Part shown: positions 1-17,458 of the stretch, in pieces
Numbering within the stretch: the stretch's first letter is position 1
Layout: each line of letters begins with the position of its first letter
Assembly (NCBI GenBank): GCA_946479905.1
Contig: CAMLIA010000076.1
Span: 1 to 17,506 of the forward strand
Direction of reading: 5' to 3'
Source of the DNA: an uncultured Frankiales bacterium
GTDB taxonomy: Bacteria > Actinomycetota > Actinomycetes > Mycobacteriales > SCTD01
DNA: 17,506 nt
Made by a program: the position numbers and the translations under genes
The notes under the pieces: generated by a model
Databases searched by the model: none
What the model was told of the DNA's origin: nothing
Seen by the model: only the letters and a program-made list of their open reading frames with translations

Positions 1-101
1 CCAGGGTGCTGGGGCTGGCCGAGGGGACCGTGAAGGCGCAGCTGCACGCCGGGCGCAAGGCACTCGGCAGGCGCATCGAGAGCAGGGGTGGCATGCCGTG
101 A
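1..101 (+). CDS. ECF-type RNA polymerase sigma factor, C-terminal fragment
   Basis: Only the last 32 codons are in the window (reading frame begins at base 3), ending at TGA 99-101. The visible peptide contains LGLAEGTVKAQLHAGRKAL, which is the second half of a sigma-70 region 4 helix-turn-helix (recognition helix GTVKAQLHAGRKAL) of the kind found in ECF/SigE-like factors; in that family this helix contacts the -35 element. A basic tail of about a dozen residues follows. The stop codon overlaps the GTG of the next gene (GTGA, 98-101), so the two are probably translationally coupled and the downstream membrane protein is the natural candidate for its regulator. The family is clear from the motif; the subclass cannot be decided without region 2. 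Confidence 0.75.
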   Translation, partial: RVLGLAEGTVKAQLHAGRKALGRRIESRGGMP

Positions 102-4808: not shown

Positions 4809-4833
4809 CCCACGATCTTGCCGCACCCCTGGG

Positions 4834-4839
4834 TAGCGT
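4834..4839 (+). promoter_or_regulatory. Candidate -10 element (TAGCGT) of a leaderless promoter
   Basis: TAGCGT fits the actinobacterial TANNNT -10 pattern and ends 7 nt before the GTG start of the ABC ATPase at 4847, the spacing expected when the transcript begins at the start codon. No good -35 sequence sits 16-18 bp upstream, and no Shine-Dalgarno sequence precedes the GTG, which also favours leaderless expression. Prediction only. Confidence 0.4.
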
Positions 4840-4846
4840 CGCCTGC

Positions 4847-5629
4847 GTGTCAGTGCTGTCGATGTCCGGCGTCACCGTGGTGCGCGAGGGCGCAACCCTG
4901 CTGGCCGACATCGACTGGGTCGTCGAGGAGGGCCAGCGCTGGGCGCTGCTCGGGCCCAACGGCGCGGGGAAGACCACGCTGCTCGCAGTCGCCGGCGCGT
5001 CGCTGCTGCCGTCGGCGGGGACGGTGACGCTGCTGGGCCAGCGCTTCGGGGAGGTCGACCTCGGGGAGCTGCGCACCCACGTCGGGCTGTCGACCGCGGC
5101 GCTGTCGGACCGCATCCCGCCCCACGAGCGCGCCGTCGACGTGGTCGTCACCGCCGCCTACGGCGTCGTCGGTCGCTGGAGCTCCGGGTACGACCCGGCT
5201 GACCTCGCCCGGGCGAACGATCTGCTCGCCCGGGTCGGGCTGCGGGCCTTCGCGGAGCGGCGCTACGGGTCGCTGTCGGAGGGCGAGCGCAAGCGGGTGC
5301 TGCTCGCCCGGGCGCTGATGACCGACCCGGAGCTGCTGCTGCTCGACGAGCCGGCGGCCGGCCTCGACCTGGGGGCGCGGGAAGCTCTGCTGCGACTGCT
5401 GACCCGGCTCACCGGTCCGGGGGCGCCGCCGACCGTGCTCGTCACCCACCACGTCGAGGAGATCCCGGCGGGAACGACGCACGCGCTGCTGCTGTCACGC
5501 GGTCGGGTCGTCGCCTCGGGGCTGATCGCGGACGTGCTCACCGGGCCGTTGCTGACCCAGTCGTTCGGCATCCCGCTGCAGGTCACGTCGGCAGAGGGAC
5601 GCTGGTCCGCGCGCTTCGCCGGGAGCTGA
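4847..5629 (+). CDS. ABC transporter ATP-binding protein (orphan, ModF/COG1119-like)
   Basis: 260 residues, GTG start. All ATPase motifs of an ABC nucleotide-binding domain are present: Walker A GPNGAGKT (36-43), a variant signature LSEGE (143-147, in place of LSGGQ), Walker B LLLLDEP (163-169), D-loop GLD (172-174) and H-loop H201 or H202 in VTHHVEE. The Asp/Glu pair D167-E168 and the Walker lysine K42 are intact, so ATP hydrolysis is expected. No permease or binding-protein gene is adjacent; the flanking genes are a divergent crotonase and a convergent zinc-ribbon gene. The short single-domain form with a SEGE signature resembles ModF/YlmA-type ATPases whose partners are unclear. Transport substrate cannot be assigned. 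Confidence 0.88.
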   Translation: MSVLSMSGVTVVREGATLLADIDWVVEEGQRWALLGPNGAGKTTLLAVAGASLLPSAGTVTLLGQRFGEVDLGELRTHVGLSTAALSDRIPPHERAVDVVVTAAYGVVGRWSSGYDPADLARANDLLARVGLRAFAERRYGSLSEGERKRVLLARALMTDPELLLLDEPAAGLDLGAREALLRLLTRLTGPGAPPTVLVTHHVEEIPAGTTHALLLSRGRVVASGLIADVLTGPLLTQSFGIPLQVTSAEGRWSARFAGS

Positions 5630-5634
5630 GACGA

Positions 5635-5665
5635 CGACGGCCGCCCCCGTCGGGAGCGGCCGTCG
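5635..5665. terminator. Bidirectional hairpin terminator
   Basis: A perfect 10-bp inverted repeat, CGACGGCCGC (5635-5644) and GCGGCCGTCG (5656-5665), with an 11-nt loop, lies between the stop codons of the convergent ABC ATPase and zinc-ribbon genes. There is no T-run on either side, as is common for GC-rich actinobacterial terminators. Position and symmetry suggest it serves both strands. Confidence 0.7.
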
Positions 5666-5681
5666 AGCGAAGGTCAGGGGG

Positions 5682-5900
5682 TCAGGGCTCGACCACCGCG
5701 GTGTCCACCCGGTCCGTCTCGTCCAGCCACTGCAGCGCGGTCTCGCGCAGGTTCGCCTCGTAGGCCTTGGCGTGGTGAGCGCAGAACAGCAGGTCGCCGG
5801 AGGCCAGCACGACGCGCACACGGGCCTGCGCGCCACAGCGGTCGCAGCGGTCGGCGTTGGTCAGGGTGGTGGGGGCGGGAGGTGTCACAGTTCCGGTCAC
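5682..5900 (-). CDS. Small zinc-ribbon protein (DUF7455-like)
   Basis: 72 residues from GTG 5898-5900. Two further in-frame GTGs at 5906 and 5909 would lengthen it by two or three residues, and no ribosome site decides between them. The core is ADRCDRCGAQARVRVVL followed by GDLLFCAHHAKAYEANL: Cys19, Cys22, Cys40 and His43 (or His42) make a plausible single zinc site, and a short acidic C-terminal helix with LDETDRVD follows. This matches the small conserved actinobacterial family annotated as DUF7455. The biochemical role of the family is unknown to me. Its conservation next to varied genes argues for a basal cytosolic function. It is encoded convergent to the ABC ATPase and divergent to the CoA-transferase. 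Confidence 0.82.
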   Translation of the reverse strand: MTGTVTPPAPTTLTNADRCDRCGAQARVRVVLASGDLLFCAHHAKAYEANLRETALQWLDETDRVDTAVVEP

Positions 5901-5957
5901 GTTCACCACAACACCACACTTCGGGCTCGCGTTCCCACTCGGGGCAGGATGTGCGGC

Positions 5958-7088
5958 GTGTCGCAACACGGAGTTCACGGACCACTCGCCGGCCTGCTGG
6001 TCGTCGACTTCTCGCGGGTGCTCGCCGGACCGTTCGCGACGATGATGCTCGCCGACCTCGGCGCCCGCGTGATCAAGGTGGAGAAACCGGACACCGGGGA
6101 CGATTCGCGCTCCTACGGGCCGTTCGTGGCCGACCGCTCGCTGTACTTCGCCCGGGTCAACCACGGCAAGGAGTCGCTCGCCGCCGACCTGCGCGACCCC
6201 GCGGACCTCGCGCTCGTTCGCCGGCTGGTCGCTCGCGCCGACGTCCTCGTCGAGAACTTCCGCCCGGGGGTGATGGCCCGGCGGGGTCTCGGGTACGACG
6301 ACTGCCGCGCCCTCAACCCGCGGCTGGTGTACTGCTCCGTCAGTGGCTTCGGTCACACCGGCCCCTGGTCGCAGCGGCCCGCCTACGACGCCGTCGTCCA
6401 GGGGATGAGCGGGCTGATGACCATCACGGGTGCCGCCGACGGGCCGCCCGTGAAGCCGGGCTCGCCGGTCGCGGACCTGTCCGCGGGCCTCTACGCCTTC
6501 GGCGGGATCTGCGCCGCCCTGCGCGGCGGTCAGGGCACGCACCTCGACGTCGCGATGTACGACGCGACGATCTCGTTGCTGGAGGGCGCGGCCCTCAGCT
6601 GGCTCGCGACGGGCCGGGAGCCGGGCCGCATCGGCAACGCCCACTTCTCGATCGCGCCGTTCGACACCTTCTCCTGCGCCGACCGCGACATCACCGTCTG
6701 CGCCGCCAACGACCTGCTGTTCGGGGCGCTCTGCACCGCGCTCGGGCTCCCGGGGCTGCTGACGGACGACCGCTTCGCCACCAACGCGCTCCGCCACGAG
6801 CACCGCGACGAGCTGAAGAAGCTCCTCGAGGAGGTGCTCGTCACCGACACCGGAGCGCACTGGCTCCAGGTGCTGGAGCGCGCCGGCATCCCGTGCGGAC
6901 CGATCAGTGACATCGCCGAGGCCGTCGGGTCCGAGCAGTCGCGGGTACGGCAGATGGTGGTCGACGCCGAAGGCGTGCCGGTGCCCGGCAACCCCGTGAA
7001 GCTGTCGGCCTGGCCGGACCCGGGCTTCCGGCCCGCGGAGCCGCTGCTCGACGAGCACGGCGACGCGATCCGCGCCGAGTTCGGATGA
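5958..7088 (+). CDS. CaiB/BaiF family (family III) CoA-transferase
   Basis: 376 residues from GTG 5958, chosen because AGGA (5946-5949) lies 8 nt upstream; ATG 5949 would add three residues. The sequence runs through the family's hallmarks: N-terminal LLVVDFSRVLAGPFATMMLADLGARVIKVE, DVLVENFRPG, and PVADLSAGLYAFGGICAAL, where the Asp (about residue 173) sits at the position of the catalytic aspartate (Asp169 in formyl-CoA transferase). Family III enzymes move CoA between carboxylic acids through an aspartyl-CoA anhydride; alpha-methylacyl-CoA racemases share the fold, so the exact reaction and substrate remain open. Length is typical. The TGA overlaps the ATG of the DinB-like gene (ATGA), so they form an operon. 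Confidence 0.9.
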   Translation: MSQHGVHGPLAGLLVVDFSRVLAGPFATMMLADLGARVIKVEKPDTGDDSRSYGPFVADRSLYFARVNHGKESLAADLRDPADLALVRRLVARADVLVENFRPGVMARRGLGYDDCRALNPRLVYCSVSGFGHTGPWSQRPAYDAVVQGMSGLMTITGAADGPPVKPGSPVADLSAGLYAFGGICAALRGGQGTHLDVAMYDATISLLEGAALSWLATGREPGRIGNAHFSIAPFDTFSCADRDITVCAANDLLFGALCTALGLPGLLTDDRFATNALRHEHRDELKKLLEEVLVTDTGAHWLQVLERAGIPCGPISDIAEAVGSEQSRVRQMVVDAEGVPVPGNPVKLSAWPDPGFRPAEPLLDEHGDAIRAEFG

Positions 7089-7555
7089 GGTGCGACGCGT
7101 GCGCCTGGTCCTACGAGGACCTGGAGGTCGCCGAGGTCCCGACGACCTTGCGGGCACTGGCGGCGGACTACCCGGAGCTGAAGCCGACGCGGACGTCGCC
7201 GGAGGTCTGGTCCCCGCTCGAGTACGGCTGCCACGTGCGGGACGTCCTGCTGGTGCAGCGCGACCGGCTGGTGCGGGCCGTCGTCGAGGACGTGCCGTCG
7301 ATGCCGTCGATGGCCCGCGACGAGCGCGTCACGCTGCTGCGATACGCGGACAGCGACCCCGATGAGGTCCGCGGGCAGGTCGTGGTCGCCGCCGACCTGC
7401 TCGCGTGGGCCTGGGACGGGCTCACGCAGGACCAGCTGACGAGGGCGATGCACTACGGCTACCCCGAGCCCGCGGTGAGGGACATCGCCTGGCTGGGTCG
7501 GCACTCCGTCCACGAGCTGCGCCACCACCTCGACGACATCCTTCGTCAGGGGTAA
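7085..7555 (+). CDS. DinB-like four-helix metalloprotein
   Basis: 156 residues, ATG start overlapping the CoA-transferase stop. The pattern W-S-P-L-E-Y-G-C-H50 in the first half and H140-S-V-H143-E-L-R-H147 at the C-terminus fits the DinB/YfiT superfamily, where three histidines (here probably H50, H143, H147) bind a divalent metal inside a four-helix bundle. Some members are thiol-dependent transferases using mycothiol or bacillithiol, others have no known reaction; which applies here cannot be told. The N-terminus has a C3-x2-C6 pair (RCDACAW) that is not part of the usual metal site. Translational coupling suggests it is made together with the CoA-transferase, but a functional link is unproven. 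Confidence 0.82.
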   Translation: MRCDACAWSYEDLEVAEVPTTLRALAADYPELKPTRTSPEVWSPLEYGCHVRDVLLVQRDRLVRAVVEDVPSMPSMARDERVTLLRYADSDPDEVRGQVVVAADLLAWAWDGLTQDQLTRAMHYGYPEPAVRDIAWLGRHSVHELRHHLDDILRQG

Positions 7556-7563
7556 GCCGGGCG

Positions 7564-9534
7564 TCACCAGCCCCGCAGGACACTGCGCGGTGGGCTGTCG
7601 GCGTGGTGGCCGGTGGGCAGCGTCCAGCGCAAGCTGCCGTCGTCGAGCTGGGTGAGCGTGAAGACGGCGTGCTTGGCCTGGTGGTGGTGCTCGCAGAGGG
7701 AGCAGCCGTTGCTGATGCTCGTCGGTCCGGCGGGCCACGGGACGCGGTGGTCGCTGTCGCACCGCACGGCCAGCCGGCTGCACCCGGGGAAGCGGCACGT
7801 CTGGTCCCGCACCTTCAGGTGCCGGGCGAGCGGGCCGGTGAACGGATAGCGGCTGCTGTCCGGAGGCAGTGGCTGGACCGGGTTGCCGAGCAGGCCGTTG
7901 ACCGCGTGGGTCAGCGCCGCGCGGCTCCACGTCGGGCCGCGCGCCGGCGCTGTCGGCCAGCCGCCCGGGGGAGCGGGGCCGCGCGCTGCGGCGGGGATCC
8001 GGCTGCCGATGAGGCTGTGCACGACCTCGGCGGGCTCGGTCTGCGCCGCCCACTCCCGGTCGGCCGGGGTGGGTGGTCGGTCGCCGCCGTGCGGCTCGGG
8101 GTCCGGTGCGGGTCGTGGCACGGGCCAGCTGGGTTGCTGGCGCCGCAGCCACTGCTGGCGCAGGGCCCGCGCTCGTGCGCTCGGCTCCTCAGGCAGCTCG
8201 GCCGCAGCGTCGCGGGCGGTCATCGCCAGGTTGTCGTCGACGAACCCGTCCGGCCACGGCTGCTCCGGCGGCGAGGGCGGTTCCGGCGGTCGCGTGCCTC
8301 CCTCGGGGTCGGGCGGGTCGGGCCAGTGGATCCTGACCGTGCCGTCGCGGTCGATGAGGACGTTCGCGAGCCCTGGGGGCCGGCCGTCGGCGGCGATCAC
8401 GTCGAGGATCTGCCGCAGCTGAGCCTGTGCGGCCGGGTCCGGCGGGTGGGTGCAGGGCTGGCAGTGGTCGTGGAAGTCGCGAGCTGCCTGGCGCAGCGCC
8501 TGCTCCGGGTCAGCGACCGCGTCGAGCTGCTCGGCCAGCCAGTGCTCGTCCGCGGCCGTGTGGTCGAGCCCGTCGGCCTCGTCGGCCAGCGCCTGGTCGG
8601 TGACCGGCGCCGGCTCGACCTGGTCGGTCAGCAGCCGCAGCGGCTTCGGCGGTGGCGCCGGGCGGGCTCGCGCGGGCACGGTGTCCACACTGACGAGCTG
8701 GCCGGCGTCGTCCACGACGACGCGCCGGATGTGGGCGGCGTCCCGGACGATCCCCCGGGCCTCCGAGCCGGTCACGAACCCGAGGCCGGGGATCTCGGCC
8801 GGCTCGTCCCGCCCCTGCAGGGTCGCGAGGCTCACGAGGAGCTGCACGTGCGCCCCGACCGGGCTGATCTGGCCGCTGATGAGACCCAGCAGGGTGTCGA
8901 ACCGGCGCTGCGTCAGGCTGCGGTCGTCCTCGGGAGCCTTCGGCAGGCAGAGGGCGTCCAACCCGGCGAGCGCTGCGGCGACGGCACCCTTGGGACCGTT
9001 CATGAGCATCGAGGCGCTGCCGTCGCGCTCGTCGTAGCCGGTGACCGAGCGGTTCGTGCGGGCCTTCTCCGCCCGCTTCTCGGCGGCCTCGGGGTCGACC
9101 AGGAAGATCGCCGCCCGGGTCGCCTTGCGCAGCTGGTGCGGCGTCCGTGCCGCCCGCTGCCTGAGCACCAGGTCGAGCACCTGCGCCCGCTTGCCCCGGT
9201 CGACGGAGCCGGCCAGCTCGTCGAGGACCGCGTCCGCGTGGCGGACCGTCCAGGTCCCGGCCTCGACGAGCGCCCTGACCTCGGCGTGGTCCTCGAGCAC
9301 CAGGGAGTCGTCGATCCAGCGCTGCGTCGTGAGGCTCGACTCGGCCAGCACCACCGCGAGCTCGTCGCTGACGAACCTGCGGAGCCCGAACGGCGTCTCG
9401 TCCTGCCACAGCGTCACCAGCTTGGTCCGGAGCTGCAGCTCCAGCAGCGTCTTCTGCCTGACCAGGGCGGCGATGTCGTCGAGCAGCTCAGCGCGATCGG
9501 CGCTGGGCTCGAGGGTGGGGGCGCGTGTTCTCAT
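7564..9534 (-). CDS. DUF222 / 13E12-type HNH endonuclease domain protein
   Basis: 656 residues, ATG start. The first 370 or so residues resemble the DUF222 (13E12 repeat) domain: LLELQLRTKLVTLWQDE, WIDDSLVLEDHAEVRALVEAG and the LRKATRAAIFLVDPEAAEKR stretch. A long proline-rich linker follows, including PPEPPSPPEQPWPDG. The C-terminus has an HNH module: CRFPGC (580-585), DSDHRVPW with D595-H596, SNGCSLCEHHH with N609, C611, C614 and H616-H618. HNH domains of this type are metal-dependent nucleases; the physiological role of the family, abundant in actinobacteria, is unsettled. The gene has its own promoter overlapped by a LexA-like site. It lies 101 bp downstream of the flavoprotein gene on the same strand and ends 8 bp from the convergent DinB gene. 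Confidence 0.9.
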   Translation of the reverse strand: MRTRAPTLEPSADRAELLDDIAALVRQKTLLELQLRTKLVTLWQDETPFGLRRFVSDELAVVLAESSLTTQRWIDDSLVLEDHAEVRALVEAGTWTVRHADAVLDELAGSVDRGKRAQVLDLVLRQRAARTPHQLRKATRAAIFLVDPEAAEKRAEKARTNRSVTGYDERDGSASMLMNGPKGAVAAALAGLDALCLPKAPEDDRSLTQRRFDTLLGLISGQISPVGAHVQLLVSLATLQGRDEPAEIPGLGFVTGSEARGIVRDAAHIRRVVVDDAGQLVSVDTVPARARPAPPPKPLRLLTDQVEPAPVTDQALADEADGLDHTAADEHWLAEQLDAVADPEQALRQAARDFHDHCQPCTHPPDPAAQAQLRQILDVIAADGRPPGLANVLIDRDGTVRIHWPDPPDPEGGTRPPEPPSPPEQPWPDGFVDDNLAMTARDAAAELPEEPSARARALRQQWLRRQQPSWPVPRPAPDPEPHGGDRPPTPADREWAAQTEPAEVVHSLIGSRIPAAARGPAPPGGWPTAPARGPTWSRAALTHAVNGLLGNPVQPLPPDSSRYPFTGPLARHLKVRDQTCRFPGCSRLAVRCDSDHRVPWPAGPTSISNGCSLCEHHHQAKHAVFTLTQLDDGSLRWTLPTGHHADSPPRSVLRGW

Positions 9535-9543
9535 GCAAGAACC

Positions 9544-9571
9544 AATCTACCCCCTCTCGACCCAAAAGCAA
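9544..9571 (-). promoter_or_regulatory. Predicted promoter of the DUF222-HNH gene
   Basis: On the minus strand a TTGCTT -35 (9566-9571) and a TAGATT -10 (9544-9549) are separated by 16 bp, with the ATG 9 nt after the -10. This 101-bp intergenic stretch is visibly richer in A and T than its surroundings. A short or absent leader is implied. Confidence 0.5.
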
Positions 9572-9583
9572 ACACCTGTTCGA
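9568..9583 (-). promoter_or_regulatory. LexA (SOS) box overlapping the -35 element
   Basis: The minus strand reads TCGAAC-AGGT-GTTTGC. The mycobacterial SOS box is TCGAAC-N4-GTTCGA, so the left arm matches fully and the right arm at four of six positions. It overlaps the -35 hexamer of the DUF222-HNH promoter, where a repressor would block transcription. From memory, several 13E12-family genes of M. tuberculosis are LexA-controlled, which supports the assignment. Confidence 0.6.
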
Positions 9584-9635
9584 AAGAATCTTCGCGAGTT
9601 TTTGCCACGTGACAGCATGTCTCAGATGTCATGCA

Positions 9636-10745
9636 CTAATCGACGAGGTCGACCAGCCAGCGCACCCTGCGGCGCTGAAGCTGCTCGGCCATCGTCGTCC
9701 GGCCGCTCACCAGCTCCTGCAGCAGCGGCCACAGCGGCGGGGTGCGCATGACCTGGTGCACGACACCCGGCCGGCGGGTGAAGACGTGCAGCGCCCGCCG
9801 TCCCGCGGCCATCTCGGCCCCGAGTTCCGCCTCCACCGCCGCCTCGTACGAGGGGAGCCGGCCCACCGCAGCCAGCCCGGCCAGCCGCCCCGACCGCAGT
9901 GCGAAGGAGATCCCCTCACGGGTCCACGGCTCGAGCAGCCCTGCCGCGTCCCCGGCGACGAGCACCTGACCGCGGCGCAGCGGTGAGCCGGCCGCACGGA
10001 CCCTTGTCTGGTGGCCGCCGTCGTGCGCCGCCGTCGTCAGGTCGAGGCCGAGCGAGGAGACGAAGGAGCGGTAGTAGTCACGCATCTCTGCTCCGGCGTC
10101 GCGCGACCCGATGACTCCCACGGTGAGGGTGTCGCCCTTCGGGAACACCCAGCCGTAGCTGCCGGGCACCGGCCCCCAGTCGAGCAGCACGTGACCGTCC
10201 CAGTCGCTGCCCGTAGGGCGCGCCAGCTCGGCCTCGAGCCCGATGTCGACGAGGTCGCACTGCACCCCGACGTACGCCGAGGCGCGGGACGCCGACCCGT
10301 CGGCCGCGACGACCGCGCGGGCCCAGACGGGACCGACGGAGGTGCCGAGCGTGACCACGCCGGCCTCCTCGGCGTACGCGCCCACTGTGACCCGGGTGCG
10401 CAGCTCGGCACCTGCCGCCTGCGCGACGGCGACCAGCGCCGCGTCCAGCTCCGACCGCAGCACCATCGGCAGGAAGGGCGCCGCCGAGCGCTGGAAGCCC
10501 CGCCGGCCGCCCGAGGTGAAGGTGAACCGGCCGACGTGGTCCCGCGCGAGGGCGGTGACGTCCACACCGGCGTCAGCGAGCGCCTGCTGCGCGGGCCCGA
10601 TCAGGCCACCCCCGCACCGCTTGTAGCGGGGCAGCTCCGCCCGCTCCAGCATCAGCACGCGGGCGCCGGACGCCGCTGCCGCCCGGGCGGCCGCCGCCCC
10701 GGCCGGGCCGGCTCCGACCACAGCCAGGTCCCACACGTCCCTCAC
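9636..10745 (-). CDS. Geranylgeranyl reductase family FAD-dependent oxidoreductase
   Basis: 369 residues from GTG 10745; an in-frame GTG at 10778 would add 11 residues and is preceded by a weak CCAGG, so the start is uncertain. The Rossmann FAD site is WDLAVVGAGPAGAAAARAA followed by the acidic end of strand two (VLMLERA). The KRCGGGL motif is the one typical of geranylgeranyl reductases, and the second FAD motif is VLVAGDAAGLLEPWTREGI. These flavoenzymes reduce isoprenoid double bonds, for example in menaquinone side chains or lipid precursors; some relatives are halogenase-like or hydroxylases. Substrate is not given by the neighbours. It precedes the HNH gene on the same strand and is divergent from the lytic transglycosylase. 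Confidence 0.85.
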   Translation of the reverse strand: MRDVWDLAVVGAGPAGAAAARAAAASGARVLMLERAELPRYKRCGGGLIGPAQQALADAGVDVTALARDHVGRFTFTSGGRRGFQRSAAPFLPMVLRSELDAALVAVAQAAGAELRTRVTVGAYAEEAGVVTLGTSVGPVWARAVVAADGSASRASAYVGVQCDLVDIGLEAELARPTGSDWDGHVLLDWGPVPGSYGWVFPKGDTLTVGVIGSRDAGAEMRDYYRSFVSSLGLDLTTAAHDGGHQTRVRAAGSPLRRGQVLVAGDAAGLLEPWTREGISFALRSGRLAGLAAVGRLPSYEAAVEAELGAEMAAGRRALHVFTRRPGVVHQVMRTPPLWPLLQELVSGRTTMAEQLQRRRVRWLVDLVD

Positions 10746-10751
10746 AGAGGG

Positions 10752-10766
10752 TTGTCCATGAGACAA
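10752..10766. promoter_or_regulatory. Inverted repeat TTGTC-N5-GACAA, possible operator
   Basis: A 5-bp perfect dyad with a 5-nt centre (CATGA) lies 6 bp upstream of the preferred GTG of the flavoprotein gene, in the divergent region shared with the transglycosylase. Dyads of this size are typical of MarR- or TetR-like dimer sites, but no regulator gene is adjacent. If translation starts at 10778 instead, the repeat is inside the coding sequence. Confidence 0.3.
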
Positions 10767-10881
10767 TCTGGGTAACACCGGCCAAACCTGGGCAGCGCGA
10801 CGACTCCCCGCGCGCTACCCATCACGTCCGCCCAGACCTGCTCGTTGAGCACACCGGACTGCCTATCAGAGGAGGCACTGC

Positions 10882-11940
10882 GTGCGTCGCCCTGCCGCCC
10901 TGGCGACCTGCGCCCTGCTGCTCGCGGGGTGCGGCCTGTCCACCCACCGGCCCAGCGCTCCGCAGGCCGCCTCGGCGCCGTCCCCCGTGTCGCGGGCGGA
11001 CGCCCAGCACGCCTCCCGCTCGCGCGCCCTCCCGGTCAAGCCGCTGCGCAAGGCCGTGACGCCCGACCTGATGCTCACCACCCGTGCGCCGCTGACGCAG
11101 AAGCAGGTGGCCGGGATCCTTCGGCTGCGCGGGGTGACCAGCAGCAGCGTGCTCAGCACCGGAGCCGTCCGCGTGGGGCACCGGGCCGTCAACGCGATGG
11201 GCGTCGACCCGTCGAGCTTCCGGGCGTTCACGCCCCGGGACACGGCCCGCTCGGACGCGCTGTGGTCGGCCGTGGCGCAGGGCCAGCTGGCGGCGTCCTA
11301 CGCCGCTCGCCTGCCGCTCGGCAGCGTCGTGCACGTCTTCGGCCGGCACGGCCTCGACGCCCGGATCGGCGCCGTGGCCTCCTACGACCTGCCCGGGTCG
11401 GCGCTCGTCATGAACCGCGCGCTCGGCTCCGACGTGGGCCTCGTGACGAACACCATCGTGCTCGCGGCGCCGGAGCGACGGCTGAGCCGCCTCGAGAACC
11501 AGATCCGCGACGTCGTCGGGGAGCACGTGGTCTTCACCGAGCTGCGGCCCGCGCAGATCGTCGATCGGCGGCCCAAGACGTACAAGGAGCTCTACCAGCT
11601 CTCGGCGTCCTACTGCCCGGGGCTGTCGTGGACGATCCTCGCCGCCATCGGCCAGGTCGAGAGCGGCCACGGCCGCAACGTGGGCCCGTCCAGTGCCGGT
11701 GCGCTCGGCCCGATGCAGTTCCTGCCGTCGACGTGGGCGCAGTACGCCGTCGACGGGGACGGTGACGGCAAGGCCGACATCATGAGCCCGTACGACGCGG
11801 TGCCGGCCGCAGCGCTCTACCTGTGCCGCAACGGTGCCGGCCGTGGTGGGCAGGCGCTCTACGACGCGATCTTCAACTACAACCACGCCGACTGGTACGT
11901 CCGCGAGGTGCTCGCGATCGCCGCGCAGTACGCCGCGTAG
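10882..11940 (+). CDS. Lipoprotein lytic murein transglycosylase (SLT/MltB-like) with extra N-terminal domain
   Basis: 352 residues from GTG 10882, preceded by GGAGG (10871-10875) at 6 nt. A lipoprotein signal ends in L-A-G-C17. The C-terminal 120 residues are a soluble-lytic-transglycosylase fold: GQVESGHGRN with catalytic Glu260, GALGPMQFLPSTWAQY, and NYNHADWYVREVLAIAAQY. The loop DGDGDGKAD (291-299) matches a DxDxDG calcium-binding pattern, as in MltB/Slt35, which has an EF-hand-like calcium site. The enzyme should cleave glycan strands of peptidoglycan to anhydromuropeptides at the outer membrane face. Residues about 40-230 are not part of the known fold and look like an extracytoplasmic permease domain. 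It is monocistronic as far as can be seen. Confidence 0.85.
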   Translation: MRRPAALATCALLLAGCGLSTHRPSAPQAASAPSPVSRADAQHASRSRALPVKPLRKAVTPDLMLTTRAPLTQKQVAGILRLRGVTSSSVLSTGAVRVGHRAVNAMGVDPSSFRAFTPRDTARSDALWSAVAQGQLAASYAARLPLGSVVHVFGRHGLDARIGAVASYDLPGSALVMNRALGSDVGLVTNTIVLAAPERRLSRLENQIRDVVGEHVVFTELRPAQIVDRRPKTYKELYQLSASYCPGLSWTILAAIGQVESGHGRNVGPSSAGALGPMQFLPSTWAQYAVDGDGDGKADIMSPYDAVPAAALYLCRNGAGRGGQALYDAIFNYNHADWYVREVLAIAAQYAA

Positions 11941-12038
11941 CACTCGTAGGCCCTGGCACAGCTCCTGCTTCTACGTCCGACCGGGGGTTCGCCCGTTGTC
12001 TGCCGAGCCCAAGGTGCCGCCGGGCGTTCGTGCCGCGG

Positions 12039-12049
12039 GACGAATCGTC
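12039..12049. promoter_or_regulatory. Short palindrome GACGA-A-TCGTC upstream of the tethered sigma gene
   Basis: An 11-bp odd palindrome lies 62 bp upstream of the sigma-factor start, in the 171-bp gap that should hold its promoter. It may be an operator half-site pair or chance. A TAGGCT at 12066-12071 is a possible -10 but has no good -35 partner. Nothing else was seen in this gap. Confidence 0.2.
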
Positions 12050-12111
12050 GTGGACCTGCTGGCCGTAGGCTCCTCCGGGCGCCAGTGGAGCGCCGACGCG
12101 ACGGGGGATGC

Positions 12112-13086
12112 ATGGCAGCCGTGACGTGCCGGATGTCCGGTGTCCTCGGTGCGGCTGCCCCCCGCTGGGCGGAGGTGTGGGAGCACCACGACGAGCTCGT
12201 GAGGCTGGCACGATCCAGGGACGTGTCTGTCGAGGACGCGGAGGACGTCGTGCACGAGGTCCTGCTGCTGGCCGCTGAGGATGCCACGATCAGGCTGGAC
12301 AGCGTGGGCGCCTGGATGAACCGCGTGGTGCGCAACAAGGTCGCGGATCTCCACCGGCAGCGCGGGTACCACCGGCATCGTGTCCGGTTCCAGATGAGGA
12401 TGTCGGCGGGCGCTCCGCCGGTCGATGAGCGGGCGTGCGACGAGGACGAAGCGAGGTATCTCGCTCGCCGGCTCCTCGAGCTGCCACAGCGCCAGCAGCA
12501 CGCCCTGCTGCTGTCCGCGCGCGGCTGCTCCGCCGCGGAGATCGCTGACACGATGCTCGCCTCGCCCAAGGCGGTCGAGAACCTCCTGGGAAAGGCGAGA
12601 CGTGCTCTGCGCGCGTCGGTCGTGTCCCTGGCTGCCGGTTGGACCACAGGCGCCCTGAGGGTGCGCGCGGGCGGTCCTCGGCTGGTGACGGCAGGGATCG
12701 CGGTAGCGGTAGTCGGTGCGGTCGTGAGCCTGGGGCACCGCGGGACCGACGCGGGTGGACCGGTCACCGACGAGTTCGCTGCGCCTTCCGCGACGGAGAC
12801 GGTCTTCTCCGAGCGCGCGGCCGGGCCGCGCCGTCTCGTTGCGCGTGCTTCCAGCTCGGGTGAGGTCATCCGCGTCGCGCATGCGTCCGCTCCCCGGGAG
12901 CTCCGGCAGCTCGCGCCGGCCTTGCGCGTCCGGGTCGGCGACACCGACCTGCGGACGCCTGCCGTGACTCAGCACGGTTCGGCTCTGGACGTGGCCTCGA
13001 GCGTGCGCCGCTGCCTCCAGCGCGGACCTGTGGTGTCGGCGTCCTTCGTGGGCTGCCCCCGGGAGCATGGGCTTGCCGCCGAGTAG
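12112..13086 (+). CDS. Membrane-tethered ECF-like sigma factor (sigma domains plus TM and extracytoplasmic tail)
   Basis: 324 residues from ATG 12112; GTG 12085 would add nine, and the GGGGGA before the ATG is only 3 nt away, so the start is tentative. Residues 24-85 are sigma region 2 (VEDAEDVVHEVLLLAAED, DSVGAWMNRVVRNKVADLHRQRG). Residues 118-168 are region 4 (LLELPQRQQHALLLSARG then SAAEIADTMLASPKAVENLLGKARRAL). A hydrophobic segment at 191-208 (LVTAGIAVAVVGAVVSL) then crosses the membrane, leaving about 115 residues outside, with two cysteines (C301, C315). ECF factors are normally about 200 residues and soluble. This one resembles a sigma factor fused to its own membrane anchor, so release by proteolysis is a natural hypothesis. 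A propeller and an FtsH-like protease follow. Confidence 0.78.
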   Translation: MAAVTCRMSGVLGAAAPRWAEVWEHHDELVRLARSRDVSVEDAEDVVHEVLLLAAEDATIRLDSVGAWMNRVVRNKVADLHRQRGYHRHRVRFQMRMSAGAPPVDERACDEDEARYLARRLLELPQRQQHALLLSARGCSAAEIADTMLASPKAVENLLGKARRALRASVVSLAAGWTTGALRVRAGGPRLVTAGIAVAVVGAVVSLGHRGTDAGGPVTDEFAAPSATETVFSERAAGPRRLVARASSSGEVIRVAHASAPRELRQLAPALRVRVGDTDLRTPAVTQHGSALDVASSVRRCLQRGPVVSASFVGCPREHGLAAE

Positions 13087-13148
13087 AGCGACGAGCCGGC
13101 AGGAACGCCGTCGGGGAGGGGTGCGGCCTTCTCAAACGAAGGACCAGT

Positions 13149-13358
13149 GTGAATACGACCTCGCGCATGCTCGCCGTCCTCGGTCTTCTCGTCCTCGCCG
13201 CACTGTCCCTGAGCATCACCGCGCCTGAGGGCGGGATCCCTCGCAACGACGCGGTGGGACAGCTGTGCGTCGAGTCAGCCACGGAGCACGTGGCCGGGCG
13301 CACCGTCACCACCCCTGAGGTCTGCCTCCCGGACGCCCCCGTCGCTCGCCTGGGTTGA
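13149..13358 (+). CDS. Small secreted or single-pass membrane peptide, unknown function
   Basis: 69 residues, GTG start with GAAGGA (13138-13143) 5 nt upstream, a well-placed ribosome site that supports the gene. Residues 7-24 (MLAVLGLLVLAALSLSI) are a signal peptide or membrane anchor without a clear cleavage motif. The remaining 45 residues hold two cysteines (C40, C59) that could form one disulfide, and no recognisable domain. It sits 62 bp after the tethered sigma factor and 38 bp before the anchored propeller, all on one strand. A role as a small partner of that membrane system is possible but not shown. Confidence 0.6.
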   Translation: MNTTSRMLAVLGLLVLAALSLSITAPEGGIPRNDAVGQLCVESATEHVAGRTVTTPEVCLPDAPVARLG

Positions 13359-13361
13359 GGG

Positions 13362-13390
13362 ACGACAGGGACCGGGACGGCCGGGATACT
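13362..13390 (+). promoter_or_regulatory. Candidate promoter of the anchored propeller gene
   Basis: ACGACA (13362-13367) and GATACT (13385-13390) are spaced 17 bp apart, and the ATG at 13397 follows the -10 by only 6 nt, which suits a leaderless transcript. It begins just after the stop of the 69-residue gene. The match to consensus is moderate, and read-through from upstream is equally possible. Confidence 0.35.
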
Positions 13391-13396
13391 GGGGCC

Positions 13397-14977
13397 ATGC
13401 ACCTGTCGCCGAGACTGGTGAGTGCACGTCAGGGCGTGGGTTGGCTCCTGCTCGCGGCATGCGTCGTCCCGGGGAGCGGCCTGACACCCGGTGGTACGCC
13501 GGCACAGGCGGCCGGACAGGGCTACACCTACCTGGCGCCGGGCTACCACCAGCAGGTGGTTGCCGCACCTGGGTCCAGCGGTGACGCCTACGGGCACGTG
13601 GCGCTCGAGGGGGCAGCCGTCCGCGAGGACGGCGCGCTGGTCGTCGCCACCTCAGTCGAGCACCAGCCGTTCGCCCAGACCTCATCGACGCAAGGGGCTG
13701 ACCCCGGGTACCTGCACGTCCTCTCCTCAGGAACGGGAGCGCTCTCGGACTCGAACCGCCTGGGGCGCCCGCTGGACCTGTCCGGCGACGCGCTCCGAGA
13801 CGGGCTGCTCTACGGCATCGTGGCGACGAACCCGCACAACGACGGGCCGGACCCGCCGACCTACGACGTGCTCGTGGTCGACCCGTTCAGCCGCACGGTC
13901 GTGCGGAAGCTGACGGAGTGGTGGATCGCCGAGCTCCAGATCGCGGTCGACCCGGTGACGAAGCAGCTGGTCATGCTGGGCGAGTGCGGGCCCTGCGCTC
14001 AGCAGGCGAGCAACAGGGGCCACGTCGCCGGCGGTGTGCAGCTGGTCGACCCGGTGACCGGCCGGCGCACCGAGCTCGTGCCCGGGCCGAAGACCACCGA
14101 GGAGGCCGTCACCAGACCCTTCGGCGACGCCCTCGCGCTGAGCCCAGAGGGCGCGACCATCTACGTGGGGTACGAGTCGTCGTCGAGCTACGGCATCGAC
14201 GCCTTCAACCGATCAGGACGCCGGCTCTTCCACATCGCCACACCGCAATCGGTCTTTGCGCTCGCCTTCGGCACGCCGGGCACCTGTACGGCCGGACTGC
14301 TCTACTACCAGCTGCACGACGGCTCGGTCTGGGTGGTGAAGGACCCTGGGCCCGAGTCGGTCGCCGGAGCCGTGGTCGCCACTGGTCTTTCCACCACCGG
14401 GTACGGCAGATCCATGCTGTTCGACCAGCGAGGCAACCTGCTGGCCCTCACCGCACAAGGCGTGATCCGCCTGACTCCGCCCACTGCACCGGCGGGCGCC
14501 GACTCCTGCGGCCCGCGCCACCAGGGCCGGCCGGCCAAGGTGCCCGAGGTCGGGGACCACACGACCCATGCGCAGGGGGCCGGCGCCCCGCCGCCGTCGG
14601 CTCAGGGTTCCTCCTCGGCGCTCGGCGGACCCGGGCTCGGGAGCCCCGGTGGCGCACCGGCGGCGCAGAGCCAGCCAGGCACCCAGGCCGCGACGTCCGC
14701 TCAGCACCAAGGTGCGACGCAGACGTCGGTGGGGTCGCAGGCCGCCTCGCAGGCAGCGATGAACCCCAACGTCGCCGCGCTGGCCGACCTCACCGAGGAG
14801 GAGCCGGTGTACGGCCTTTCCGCAGCACCTCTCCGCCGACCGTCACCGGTGGTCTTCTTCGCCCTCGCCGGCCTGACCGTCGTGATGGGTGCCGCGTCCG
14901 TGGTTGCCAGCGACAAGACAGGAAGCCTCATGCCCACGACTCGCATCCCTCGTCGCCGCACCGGACGCCGCGCGTGA
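13397..14977 (+). CDS. Extracytoplasmic beta-propeller protein with C-terminal membrane anchor
   Basis: 526 residues from ATG 13397; an upstream in-frame ATG-like extension to 13355 lacks signal-peptide sense. A signal sequence (hydrophobic 13-25) is followed by A36-Q-A38 cleavage; L-A-A-C22 could alternatively be a lipobox. Residues about 45-380 carry six or more propeller-like strands (DVLVVDPFSRTVVRKL, GGVQLVDPVTGRR, ATIYVGYESSSSYGID, GSVWVVKDP, GNLLALTAQGVIRLT). A low-complexity Ala/Gly/Ser/Gln/Pro linker of about 80 residues leads to a membrane helix (485-505) and a short cytoplasmic tail rich in Arg (RIPRRRTGRRA). C197-G-P-C200 is a CxxC pair in a loop. The stop overlaps the start of the FtsH-like gene (GTGA, 14974-14977), so the two are coupled. 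Function unknown; a sensor or protease-partner role is inferred. Confidence 0.78.
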   Translation: MHLSPRLVSARQGVGWLLLAACVVPGSGLTPGGTPAQAAGQGYTYLAPGYHQQVVAAPGSSGDAYGHVALEGAAVREDGALVVATSVEHQPFAQTSSTQGADPGYLHVLSSGTGALSDSNRLGRPLDLSGDALRDGLLYGIVATNPHNDGPDPPTYDVLVVDPFSRTVVRKLTEWWIAELQIAVDPVTKQLVMLGECGPCAQQASNRGHVAGGVQLVDPVTGRRTELVPGPKTTEEAVTRPFGDALALSPEGATIYVGYESSSSYGIDAFNRSGRRLFHIATPQSVFALAFGTPGTCTAGLLYYQLHDGSVWVVKDPGPESVAGAVVATGLSTTGYGRSMLFDQRGNLLALTAQGVIRLTPPTAPAGADSCGPRHQGRPAKVPEVGDHTTHAQGAGAPPPSAQGSSSALGGPGLGSPGGAPAAQSQPGTQAATSAQHQGATQTSVGSQAASQAAMNPNVAALADLTEEEPVYGLSAAPLRRPSPVVFFALAGLTVVMGAASVVASDKTGSLMPTTRIPRRRTGRRA

Positions 14978-16851
14978 GACGCGGACAGCGGACGGTCATG
15001 GCCCTCGTGACCCTCCTCCTGCTCGAGGTCGTCGCCTTGATGGTGGGTCTGCGCGTCCTGAGCCCGCACAGCCAGGGCAAGCAGATCGGCTACGACCAGT
15101 TCGGCGCGCTGCTCGCGACGAGGCAGATCACCGCAGCGATGCTCAAGGACCAGGACGCCCGGCTGCAGCTGACGACGCGGCACGGGACGGCCTTCCTCGC
15201 CTACCCGACCAGCGGAAGCAGCGGGCCGCTGCTGCTGCAGCAGCTCAGCGCGGCCAAGGTCCCCACCCGCGTCGACCAGCAGACCAGCAAGCGGATCGTC
15301 GCGCTGCTCACCCAGTTCCTGCTGCCGCTGCTCATGCTGGCGACGATCTTCGGCGCCGTCACTCTGCTCGCACGCGGGTCCGGAGGTGGCCAGGTCAAGG
15401 AGCTGTTCGCGTTCTCGCGGCTCGGTGCCAAGCGAGCGAGCAGCGCCACCAATGCCCTGCGCTTCGCTGACGTCGCGGCTGCGGGCGAAGCGGTCACCGA
15501 GCTCGCGGAGGTCCGCGACTACCTGAAGGACCCGGGACGGTTTGCCGCGATGGGTGCGCTCCCGCCGAAGGGCGTGCTGCTCTACGGCCCTCCGGGCTGC
15601 GGCAAGACACTGCTCGCGAAGGCGCTCGCCGGCGAGACCGGCGTTCCGTTCTTCTTCATGAGCGGCTCGGAGTTCGTCGAGTCGCTGGTCGGTGTCGGGG
15701 CCGCGCGGGTCCGCGACCTGTTCGTCCAGGCCCAGCAGGTCGCACCCGCGATCATCTTCATCGACGAGCTCGACGCCGCCGGGCGACGTCGCGGCACCGG
15801 CGTCGGTGGCGGGAACGACGAACGCGAGCAGACCCTGAACGAGATGCTGGTCCAGATGGACGGCTTCGCGCCCTCCCTCGGCGTCGTCGTCATCGGTGCC
15901 ACGAACCGCCCGGACATCCTTGACCCTGCGCTGCTGCGACCGGGCAGGTTCGACCGGCACGTCGCCCTCGAACCGCCCGACGTGGTGGGGCGGCAGGAGA
16001 TCCTCCAGCTGCACGCCAGGAACCGGCCCTTGGACGGTTCGGTGGACCTGCGACAGATCGCGAAGGGCACCCCCGGCTTCTCGGGCGCCGACCTCGCCAA
16101 CGTCCTCAACGAGGCGGCGCTGCTCGCCGTTCGTCGCAGGGCCAGCACCATCGGGCAGGCCGATCTCGACGAGGCCGTCCAGCGCGTTCTCAACGGACCC
16201 CGACGCCGAGGCAGGCTCCTCACCGACAGCGAGATCACGCGGCTCGCCTACCACGAAGCCGGACACGTCGTCGTGGCGCACGCGGTCGACTACCCGGCCG
16301 AGATCAGCCGGGTCAGCATCGTGGCCCGCGGGCGGAGCGCGGCGCACACCGACCTGCTGCCGCAGACCGACCGCACCGTGCTGACCCGCTCGGAGCTCGA
16401 GGCCGAGCTCGCCATCGCCATGGCCGGTATCGCTGCCGAGGAGCTCGCCACCGGGGAGCCCTCGACCGCAGGGGAGGCAGACGTGGAACGGGCCACCGAC
16501 ATGGCCCGTCGCTACGCCGGCCAGTACGGGATGAGCCTCGATGTCGGCCGGCTCCGCGTGCTGCGTCGCGACACCGAGGCCTACCTCGGCCGGGACATGA
16601 CGAGCCTCGACACCATCAGCAGCCAGACCCTGCAGTCGGTCGACACCGCCATCAGCGGCCTGCTCGAGGAGGCCGAACAACGGGCGCTGTCACTGCTACG
16701 ACGACAGCGTTCCGTCCTCGACAGCATCGCCAAGGCACTGATCGAGCAGGAGACCCTGGAGCAGGCGGAGCTGCTGGCGCTGCTGGCCCGGCCGCGGACG
16801 AGCAAGACCAAGAGGTCCGGCACCTCGCTGTCGGCAGAAACCGGGGCGTAG
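14974..16851 (+). CDS. FtsH-like membrane AAA+ zinc metalloprotease (divergent paralogue)
   Basis: 625 residues from GTG 14974; ATG 14998 is an alternative, but the GTG overlaps the upstream stop and gives a basic N-terminus before TM1. Order: TM1 (about 9-28), a periplasmic-side domain of about 80 residues, TM2 (about 108-134), AAA+ domain with Walker A GPPGCGKT (205-212), Walker B IIFIDELDA and SRH ATNRPDILDPALLRPGRFDRH. The M41 peptidase has H427-E428-A-G-H431 and a third ligand D503 in EADVERATDMAR. All catalytic residues are kept, so it should be an ATP-driven membrane protease. The pore loop reads ESLVGVG where FtsH has EMFVGVG, with Leu238 replacing the conserved Phe. It is probably a second FtsH, not the housekeeping one, given its sensor-protein context. 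Confidence 0.9.
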   Translation: MRRGQRTVMALVTLLLLEVVALMVGLRVLSPHSQGKQIGYDQFGALLATRQITAAMLKDQDARLQLTTRHGTAFLAYPTSGSSGPLLLQQLSAAKVPTRVDQQTSKRIVALLTQFLLPLLMLATIFGAVTLLARGSGGGQVKELFAFSRLGAKRASSATNALRFADVAAAGEAVTELAEVRDYLKDPGRFAAMGALPPKGVLLYGPPGCGKTLLAKALAGETGVPFFFMSGSEFVESLVGVGAARVRDLFVQAQQVAPAIIFIDELDAAGRRRGTGVGGGNDEREQTLNEMLVQMDGFAPSLGVVVIGATNRPDILDPALLRPGRFDRHVALEPPDVVGRQEILQLHARNRPLDGSVDLRQIAKGTPGFSGADLANVLNEAALLAVRRRASTIGQADLDEAVQRVLNGPRRRGRLLTDSEITRLAYHEAGHVVVAHAVDYPAEISRVSIVARGRSAAHTDLLPQTDRTVLTRSELEAELAIAMAGIAAEELATGEPSTAGEADVERATDMARRYAGQYGMSLDVGRLRVLRRDTEAYLGRDMTSLDTISSQTLQSVDTAISGLLEEAEQRALSLLRRQRSVLDSIAKALIEQETLEQAELLALLARPRTSKTKRSGTSLSAETGA

Positions 16852-16878
16852 CCGAGAGGGCGGACGAGGCCTCGCGCG

Positions 16879-16968
16879 AAGGGAGGGTGCGAGCCGCTCC
16901 TCCGGCGGCTCCGCTCCGACAGTCACCGCGACTGTCGGTCTGCCAACCCAGAGAGGACACCCTCCCTT
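16879..16968 (+). promoter_or_regulatory. Structured 5' leader: three-way junction closing on the start codon
   Basis: An 11-bp perfect inverted repeat, AAGGGAGGGTG (16879-16889) with CACCCTCCCTT (16958-16968), would form a closing stem P1. It encloses hairpin P2, GAGCCGC/GCGGCTC (16891-16897, 16905-16911; 7-nt loop), and hairpin P3, CCGACAGT/ACTGTCGG (16916-16923, 16931-16938; 7-nt loop). The 3' strand of P1 includes the first two bases of the TTG start (16967), and the likely ribosome site GAGAGGA (16951-16957) lies in the single-stranded joint before it. Folding would hide the start codon. P2 and P3 could also terminate transcription from the upstream gene. No known riboswitch class was recognised. 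Confidence 0.6.
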
Positions 16969-17458
16969 GAAGCTCCCACGCGTCGGTCGCAGTCTGACCC
17001 GCCTCATCCCCGTCGTGGCACTCGCCGCGACCGGACTCGTCATCAGCGGAACCCCCGCGCAGGCCGCCAGCTGCACGGAGCTGTCGGGCAGCCAGTTCGG
17101 CGTCGACACCACCGCAGCGGTCGGGACCGTCATCGTCTACGACCTCATCGGGTTTGCCGACCTGTCTCCCGGTTGTGCCACCGGTGAGCTCGACATCGTG
17201 GCGGCCCCGGCCGTCGGAAGCGTCGGCACCGCCAGCACCTGCACGTTCGTCCTGCCGCAGACGCCGGGTGGCTCCGGCACCGGCTGCGACGGGCTCCTCG
17301 GAGTGTCCGGCGTCGGTGTCGGGGGCGGTGTCTTCCGGGTCACCCTCGCTGCTGAGCTGACCGCCGTCGGCACGGACGGCTCTCGGGTGACGAGGACGGC
17401 CACGTGCACCGTCGCGCCGCCGGCCTCACCTGGCTTCGGACCCCGCTGCCCCATCTAG
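16967..17458 (+). CDS. Secreted six-cysteine protein, unknown function
   Basis: 163 residues with a TTG start, supported by GAGAGGA (16951-16957) at a 9-nt spacing and by the signal peptide that begins there (KLPRVGRSL then a hydrophobic core to A31-Q-A33, cleaved before A34-S-C36). The mature part of about 130 residues is Gly/Thr/Ala/Val-rich, probably all-beta, with six cysteines (SC, GC, TC, GC, TC, RC contexts) that could pair as three disulfides. No domain is recognised. It follows the FtsH-like gene by 115 bp, and the gap is filled by the structured leader, so its translation may be separately controlled. It may be an envelope effector of the cluster; this is a guess. Confidence 0.75.
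   Translation: MKLPRVGRSLTRLIPVVALAATGLVISGTPAQAASCTELSGSQFGVDTTAAVGTVIVYDLIGFADLSPGCATGELDIVAAPAVGSVGTASTCTFVLPQTPGGSGTGCDGLLGVSGVGVGGGVFRVTLAAELTAVGTDGSRVTRTATCTVAPPASPGFGPRCPI

Follow-up and report, generated by a model that had tools for sequence, protein, structure and literature searches.

Do the four consecutive plus-strand genes at positions 12112 to 16851 of a 17,506-nucleotide contig from an uncultured Frankiales bacterium (GCA_946479905.1, CAMLIA010000076.1; the whole stretch is called the window here) form one system, and what would the membrane protease among them act on? The initial annotation had described a sigma factor with its own membrane segment, a small peptide, an anchored propeller protein and a membrane AAA+ protease, with the last two genes overlapping by GTGA. 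All four genes are present, and the overlap lies at 14974-14977. Comparison with other loci and with related genomes (labelled L and G with a number, respectively; copy numbers are from the related genomes) leads us to propose, with a probability of roughly 0.4, an actinobacterial envelope module in which an accessory FtsH would be dedicated to tail-bearing surface proteins, and in which a tethered sigma factor would act as read-out in a subset of loci. A dedicated protease was preferred because FtsH and its partner are paired, a common tail is carried by unlike ectodomains, tail proteins also occur unlinked to FtsH, and tail and accessory FtsH co-occur among genomes.

Accessory and canonical FtsH

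The protease gene (14974..16851, plus strand) has a GTG start and encodes 625 amino acids (aa). Its product scored 643.9 bits with TIGR01241 (cut-off 600), matched the Pfam families AAA and Peptidase_M41, and has a Walker A motif (GPPGCGKT), a Walker B motif (IIFIDELD), the zinc motif HEAGH and two transmembrane (TM) segments at residues 4-33 and 105-137, which bears out its identification as a membrane AAA+ protease. In FtsH, the aromatic residue of the pore, the loop Phe, grips the substrate. The pore loop of the window FtsH reads FVESLVGVGA, unlike the canonical FVEMFVGVGA. Pore loop 1 was FVE[SA]LVGVGA in 38 of the 39 accessory loci, the exception being L057, where the motif was not found in a genome with masked stretches; in the 44 canonical loci it was FVEMFVGVGA (43) or FVEMYVGVGA (1). 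In a tree of 65 FtsH rows, 24 accessory and 41 canonical rows were split by a branch with 100/100 support, and HEXXH was present in all 24 accessory rows. The same split was obtained in a 49-row tree (39 accessory and 10 canonical rows) with a Shimodaira-Hasegawa-like approximate likelihood ratio (SH-aLRT) support of 100. Since the trees are unrooted, the accessory set is termed a group rather than a clade. By these sequence features the window FtsH is assigned to an accessory subfamily and not to the housekeeping type. L003, which has a broken FtsH frame, was excluded from alignments and trees; L256, where the contig ends within FtsH, is not counted among the 39 accessory loci; and L199, L205 and L208, which carry the canonical loop, were used as controls.

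By score, accessory FtsH was found in nine genomes of a phylum sample of 396 and in 13 genomes of a class sample of 296, the two samples overlapping. Scoring in the class sample covered the top candidates of each genome; those of at least 812 bits were taken as accessory, those of 771 bits or less as canonical. The phylum-sample genome G182 has an additional, truncated accessory FtsH, whose pore loop lies off the contig and which adjoins a tail-bearing protein, and G442 has ten full-length accessory copies. Of three matches from outside Actinomycetota that were inspected, two have FVELF (L002, L005) and the third (L006) gave no readable motif. Among 2019 plasmid records, none covered at least 80% of the window FtsH, and the ten rows listed resemble ordinary FtsH.

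The neighbour of accessory FtsH

The usual neighbour of accessory FtsH, here called the partner, is a long secreted protein with a C-terminal TM segment and an Arg-rich end. Its gene lies upstream of FtsH in the window, L004, L059, L206 and L250, and L026 and L063 have truncated tails at this place; L207 has one such gene on each side, and in most other loci it is downstream, in some of them after a gene for a soluble AAA protein. By an automatic rule, a C-anchored secreted protein was found beside 30 of the 39 accessory versus 5 of the 44 canonical FtsH genes. L250, L268 and L269 had entered the comparison through sigma or tail loci and not by FtsH score, and were independently listed by a later FtsH search; of the 36 accessory loci chosen by FtsH score alone, 27 had a C-anchored neighbour. 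All five canonical hits look spurious by eye, two resembling folP-type enzymes (L144, L164), two enzymes of other kinds (L129, L146) and one a fragment of a membrane protein (L065); hpt, tilS, folE or folP-like genes were seen beside canonical FtsH (L065, L129, L199, L205, L208). The rule also made errors in accessory loci: its hit in L268 was the wrong open reading frame (ORF), a subtilase, and L204 was missed, both of which do have C-anchored tails, and extra hits in L004, L118, L196 and L197 were spurious. It gave no hit in L195, and the contig of L060 ends too soon. A hidden Markov model (HMM) of the partner tail matched 20 of the 39 accessory loci (12 training rows and 8 others) versus none of the 44 canonical loci. 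Furthermore, the clusters of three more full-length FtsH copies of G442 (one of them in L249) all include a C-anchored protein, encoded after an AAA gene. These gene comparisons give good support to FtsH and propeller as a unit.

That the four genes are a chance cluster of unrelated envelope genes is highly improbable. The exact four genes of the window, small ORF included, occur in no other locus compared, as such a cluster would predict, but the comparison of accessory and canonical neighbourhoods already disfavours it, and both trees and the gene order of L250 (see below) also stand against it.

The ectodomains of the partners are of several kinds. Pfam matches were to NHL, and to sortilin-Vps10/BNR and vWA mostly below the cut-offs; the secreted protein after FtsH matched PQQ_2 in L127 and L194 and LVIVD in L058, and the downstream partner of L207 had no match among the Pfam families scanned. 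In L119, L120, L127, L128, L195, L197, L298 and L299, the gene after accessory FtsH encodes a soluble AAA protein of about 750-860 aa, which in L127 has two AAA domains.

The partner in the window is encoded by the propeller gene (13397..14977, plus strand, ATG start, 526 aa), whose product has a signal peptide (by eye), a Pro/Gln-rich linker, the juxtamembrane motif EEEPVYGLSA, a C-terminal hydrophobic segment at residues 481-506 and an Arg-rich tail. Of the earlier description as an anchored propeller, the anchor was recovered; the fold is without Pfam support and depends on a three-sequence profile, which matched the WD40 protein PkwA (5yzv) at 1.2e-7. The single sequence gave no relevant match in the same kind of comparison, and no Pfam or NCBIfam match was found up to E 1. 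In a structure model with a mean predicted local distance difference test (pLDDT) score of 34, Foldseek hits at E<=0.001 were IFT80 and a WD-repeat domain, both with a low template-modelling score, and the list of 50 hits consisted mostly of propellers by title; a model of such low confidence was judged too poor to guide function. As a genome marker the propeller profile was rejected, with weak partial matches in 3 of 296 genomes, and FtsH was used as the search marker because this profile is too divergent. The profile also gave no significant alignment with the partners of L004 and L056, and the similarity among partners is therefore one of architecture and tail, not of ectodomain.

The shared C-terminal tail

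Many partners end in a common tail with a [Q/E]-rich start, which consists of QEEE-x-QLAF, an acidic stretch, xAM[ST], the TM segment and RRR. In the window, the part aligned with other partners' tails is the last 85 residues of the propeller protein (14720..14974, plus strand), comprising the juxtamembrane motif, TM segment and Arg-rich tail. It reads TEEEPVYGLSAA followed by the TM segment and RRR, and its fit to the shared tail was judged by eye; it is the most divergent row of the tail alignment, with 15% identity to the first row.

At E<=0.01 the tail was found in 15 of 18 genomes searched, with a maximum of 14 in G442. At E<=1e-5, 43 hits were obtained in a set of 13 genomes, at least three in seven genomes, one in five and none in one. 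Eighteen of these hits lie within 8 kb of an accessory or partial FtsH and 25 do not, as expected of clients in trans. In 20 tail loci chosen for having no known FtsH link (L269-L288), FtsH was present in two (L269, and L270 at the contig end). Tails outnumber full-length accessory FtsH in G427 (5:1), G407 (4:2), G535 (6:2, plus 2 partial) and G480, which has four tails versus one full-length accessory FtsH and four partial FtsH genes, at least one of the latter canonical.

Tail and accessory FtsH also co-occur among genomes. In the class sample, a tail at E<=1e-7 was found in 12 of the 13 genomes with accessory FtsH versus 0 of the 283 without, a comparison whose weight is limited by training overlap, by kinship and by the scoring of only part of the candidates per genome. 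The thirteenth genome, G408, has a weak tail match (4.2e-4) next to its FtsH, and the best match in class genomes without accessory FtsH was 1.2e-6 (G594). In the phylum sample, the genomes with a tail at E<=1e-9 were G005, G118, G246 and G182, all of which have accessory FtsH (truncated in G182).

Client or regulatory partner

A number of observations, given here and for the sigma factor in the next section, weigh against a module built on a dedicated protease and tail-bearing clients. Accessory loci without a propeller neighbour exist, namely L061 (phosphodiesterase and SLT), L064 (PBP_like_2) and L201, and the propellers of L058, L127 and L128 have no detected C-terminal TM segment. L004 has, in addition to its pair of propeller and FtsH, a second FtsH-like gene some 2 kb further downstream (L004:13953-16403, plus strand), which scored 975 bits with the accessory profile and has FVELYVGVGA, two P-loops and HEAGH; it forms a long branch and could not be placed in the tree. 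The C-anchored partners of three genomes with accessory FtsH (G001, G144, G230) miss the tail profile. Training rows of this profile came from nine of the 12 matching class genomes (G458, G480 and G526 lie outside training) and from two of the four phylum genomes (G182 and G246 lie outside), and the genomes compared are kin. Finally, the ratio of tails to full-length accessory FtsH is 1:1 in G458, G496, G503, G510 and G517, and nearly so in G442 (11:10), G526 (5:5) and G417 (3:3). A partner would fit such 1:1 pairing no less than a client would.

The propeller could then be a regulatory subunit of FtsH, an extracytoplasmic gating partner like HflK/C and not a substrate, with the tail as docking element and the unlinked tail proteins as alternative regulators. 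This explanation is somewhat unlikely. It would fit the close pairing and gene overlap in the window, and the 1:1 or near 1:1 ratios in the five and three genomes just named; the four genomes in which tails are in excess, the 25 of 43 tail hits lying away from FtsH and the wide variation of ectodomains argue against it. Because of the recount of tails and FtsH, which gave equal or nearly equal numbers in eight genomes, a pure many-to-one model was weakened; both the reading as a dedicated protease and that as a sorting enzyme (see below) were lowered, and the regulatory subunit was raised.

The sigma factor and its linkage to the module

The first of the four genes (12112..13086, plus strand, ATG start, 324 aa) encodes a protein matching Sigma70_r2 (1.5e-6) and Sigma70_r4_2 (1.7e-8), both past the Pfam cut-off. 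Hydropathy gave one hydrophobic segment at about residues 186-210, followed by a C-terminal tail with two Cys, in agreement with the sigma factor carrying its own membrane segment that had been claimed. The tail is kept in two database relatives with 48 and 52% identity (P0004, P0005), and the segment is kept by eye. From these features the protein is predicted to be a sigma factor of the extracytoplasmic function (ECF) type with a C-terminal TM segment and an extracytoplasmic tail. It resembles ECF48, ECF52 and ECF53, which, in excerpts of the published accounts, have a sigma domain, a TM segment and an extracytoplasmic extension (PMC8999054, PMC5826349); unlike those, its tail is shorter and has two Cys, and neither a zinc finger nor a carbohydrate-binding domain was found with Pfam or among the best 25 of 46 NCBIfam matches listed. 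The two-Cys motif is present in many sigma relatives found in genomes and absent from L099, L100 and L103. TM status was checked for part of the 58 sigma hits described below, and L091, L092 and L103 had none by the rule used. A structure model of the sigma tail, mostly below pLDDT 50, was set aside as too poor to guide function. In the large genomes of L099 and L100, the tethered sigma gene lies directly upstream of an apparent Mce/YrbE transport operon (by eye).

A linked sigma gene was found for eight of the 39 accessory loci (window, L118, L127, L128, L202, L204, L250 and L268), the loci having been searched unequally. Conversely, FtsH was absent from the examined stretch in all 12 sigma loci shown (of 15 taken). 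In L250, from G442, a sigma gene, a gene for 113 aa, a propeller/vWA protein gene with the tail and an accessory ftsH follow one another in one direction, which is the order of the window; by eye the small gene looks like a helix-turn-helix (HTH) regulator, and the sigma shows Pfam region 2. The sigma gene is divergent from and adjoins FtsH in L118, L202 and L256, and is divergent from a tail protein gene in L251; it lies about 1.9 kb away in L127 and L128, and within 5 kb, beyond the propeller, in L204 and L268. Arrangements are kept between genomes in L118/L256 (beside guaA, by eye), L127/L128 and L204/L268. The sigma-linked loci sit on several branches of the FtsH tree, namely the window, L118/L202/L204/L268, L250 and L127/L128. 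An S8 subtilase gene adjoins the propeller gene in the sigma-linked loci L118, L204 and L268; L255 (G526) has a sigma gene and a subtilase gene next to guaA (by eye) and no FtsH.

Of 58 sigma hits in 13 genomes, 11 are no more than 5 kb away from an accessory FtsH or a tail protein, with 2.08 expected (P 1.2e-5), where expected numbers assume uniform placement and ignore contig ends. When orthologous loci were counted once, there were 8 linked sigmas (P 0.0014, defining sigmas included). Four of the 11 linked sigmas had defined one of the two sigma queries. With these four removed, the enrichment is weakened, with 7 of 54 within 5 kb (1.94 expected, P 0.0038), 4 of 54 for FtsH alone (1.01 expected, P 0.019), and 3 of 54 within 1 kb of either feature (0.84 expected, P 0.053). 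Furthermore, when 24 accessory loci were searched to a distance of 7 kb with a window-type sigma profile, the window's own sigma was the only hit; in 42 canonical-type loci there were seven hits, all to ordinary sigmas lacking a TM segment. This profile misses the linked sigmas of L118, L202, L127 and L128, which form a divergent subfamily and were found by reading the loci and by Pfam region 2. Region 2 alone was recognized by Pfam in seven sigmas of linked or nearby loci (L118, L127, L128, L202, L249, L250, L252), so that sigma-factor activity is uncertain for several linked sigmas.

The sigma gene may also be a neighbour without function in the module, such sigmas then being simply abundant in lineages with accessory FtsH. 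Most of the 58 hits lie more than 5 kb from any FtsH or tail protein, and a sigma hit at E<=1e-17 was obtained in 18 genomes, of which 11 show no accessory FtsH. Against this, part of the enrichment remains without the defining sigmas, L250 and the window have the same order, and arrangements are kept in the three groups of loci named above. We regard mere neighbourhood as doubtful. The tethered sigma is not obligate to the module; the recurrence of its link is moderately supported by the gene comparison. Of the co-occurrence expected by the initial annotation, the protease with its anchored propeller recurs, as do sigmas of the tethered type beside such pairs, but the full set is not obligate; of the gene order, the succession of sigma, small gene, propeller and FtsH is found again in L250, but the window's small ORF has no relative.

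This small ORF (13149..13358, plus strand, GTG start, 69 aa) has coding-like GC fractions of 0.74/0.54/0.84 by codon position, and its product has an N-terminal hydrophobic segment and two Cys. Because a word-based search of 5.8 billion proteins returned only the ORF itself, it appears the weakest of the four genes. Small secreted Cys-containing proteins also follow tethered-type sigmas at L096:8530-8895 and L249:7390-7866, a likeness to the 69-aa ORF in position.

Other features of the window

A scan of 11900-17100 gave two terminator-like sites, inside the propeller gene and inside ftsH (minus strand), none between the four genes, and no sigma-70-type promoter. Upstream, and outside the module as counted, there is a lytic transglycosylase-like gene (10882..11940, plus strand; Pfam SLT_2); an SLT_2 transglycosylase is near accessory FtsH a second time in L061 (L061:10317-14960, minus strand), which may be coincidence. 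Directly after ftsH, 16967-17458 (plus strand) encodes a secreted protein of 163 aa without a Pfam or NCBIfam family. Three further propeller-like envelope proteins are encoded at 98-1144 (plus), 1141-2136 (plus) and 2140-3969 (minus), the first two genes overlapping by 4 bases; one of the proteins matches DUF6923, another narrowly misses it, and the third matches PD40.

Proposed mechanism and its meaning

In the proposed module, the core would be an accessory FtsH together with a secreted propeller whose C-terminal end anchors it in the membrane. The protease would be dedicated to proteins with an acidic/Gln juxtamembrane motif, a single TM segment and an Arg tail; it would engage the TM segment and tail and extract, trim or degrade them, and would thereby set the amount of propeller or vWA protein on the surface. 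At some of the loci, the window among them, a tethered sigma would be coupled to the same FtsH as read-out. FtsH usually degrades processively, and Escherichia coli FtsH degrades sigma-32; the sigma is therefore more likely to be degraded than freed. It would probably be another client of FtsH, held at a low level by the active protease and preserved when the state of the propeller occupies or inhibits FtsH. An outside protease might take part at some loci, such as those with S8 subtilases. A physical interaction between FtsH and its partner, the direction of regulation and proteolysis of either client are what we infer for this module.

It had been suggested by the initial annotation that a signal sensed by the propeller leads FtsH to free the sigma domains from the membrane. 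Such release is improbable. The recurrent sigma linkage would fit it, the subtilases of L118, L204 and L268 could make a first cut outside, and the tethered actinobacterial ECF48, ECF52 and ECF53 are, in an excerpt, expected to be released by proteolysis (PMC8999054). Most modules compared are without a known sigma, however, seven linked or nearby sigmas have region 2 only, and the processivity of FtsH noted above also speaks against release.

Among known systems, FtsH (TIGR01241) with HflK/C is similar to the module in having a membrane AAA+ M41 protease with two TM segments and an outer-side partner. Unlike canonical FtsH, the window group consists of separate paralogues in which the pore-loop Phe is replaced by Leu and the neighbourhood differs; unlike HflK/C (PMC12048511), the partner is a C-anchored propeller/vWA protein and not an SPFH protein. 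In the CTERM systems (GlyGly-CTERM/rhombosortase, PEP-CTERM, MYXO-CTERM/myxosortase; PMC3237569, PMC11980579, PMC6219818, PMC1569441), several secreted proteins likewise share a motif, TM segment and basic tail, and a membrane enzyme co-occurs with them and has a target gene next to it. In the related genomes, such a tail is shared by several secreted proteins per genome, and the co-occurrence given above is with FtsH as the candidate cognate enzyme. CTERM enzymes are sortases, exosortases, rhomboids or CPBP proteins, whereas the recurrent neighbour here is an ATP-dependent FtsH, no genome-wide search for other enzymes having been made; the many-to-one relation is clear in some genomes only. 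By analogy, the module may work like CTERM systems, with a tag and a cognate membrane enzyme, and like FtsH with an outer-side partner, as likeness rather than membership.

A more specific form of the proposal, in which accessory FtsH is a dedicated processing or sorting enzyme for a new C-terminal signal (QEEE-x-QLAF ... xAMS, TM segment, Arg tail) of propeller/vWA proteins, CTERM-like but ATP-dependent, with tethered sigmas as clients of the same protease that report the surface state, is unlikely. We know of no CTERM-like system whose enzyme is an ATP-dependent protease. The MoxR-vWA ternary systems with FtsH or a propeller also combine AAA+, vWA and beta-propeller parts in one neighbourhood, but those, in an excerpt, use MoxR and a two-AAA FtsH-type ATPase (PMC7159879), whereas the protease of the module is an M41 enzyme of the membrane and its propeller/vWA protein is secreted and anchored. 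The protein after FtsH in L127 does have two AAA domains. No MoxR AAA+ gene was present among the nine window proteins scanned, the genes at about 4,000-10,800 lying outside the scan. The module shares only part names with these ternary systems.

In a literature search with most subscription journals outside its coverage, no FtsH-propeller or FtsH-tethered-sigma system was found. If the proposal is correct, a branch of FtsH, usually a housekeeping protease of quality control, would have been turned into a dedicated manager of surface receptors, and the recognisable client tag together with the diagnostic pore-loop change would be a testable tag-enzyme pair. It would also give a reason for the many FtsH copies in some actinobacteria, such as the ten full-length accessory copies of G442. 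For a tethered actinobacterial sigma, an excerpt of the literature speaks of "an uncharacterized protease" (PMC5826349), and the module may provide a possible answer to how the membrane-tethered sigma factors of these bacteria are controlled.

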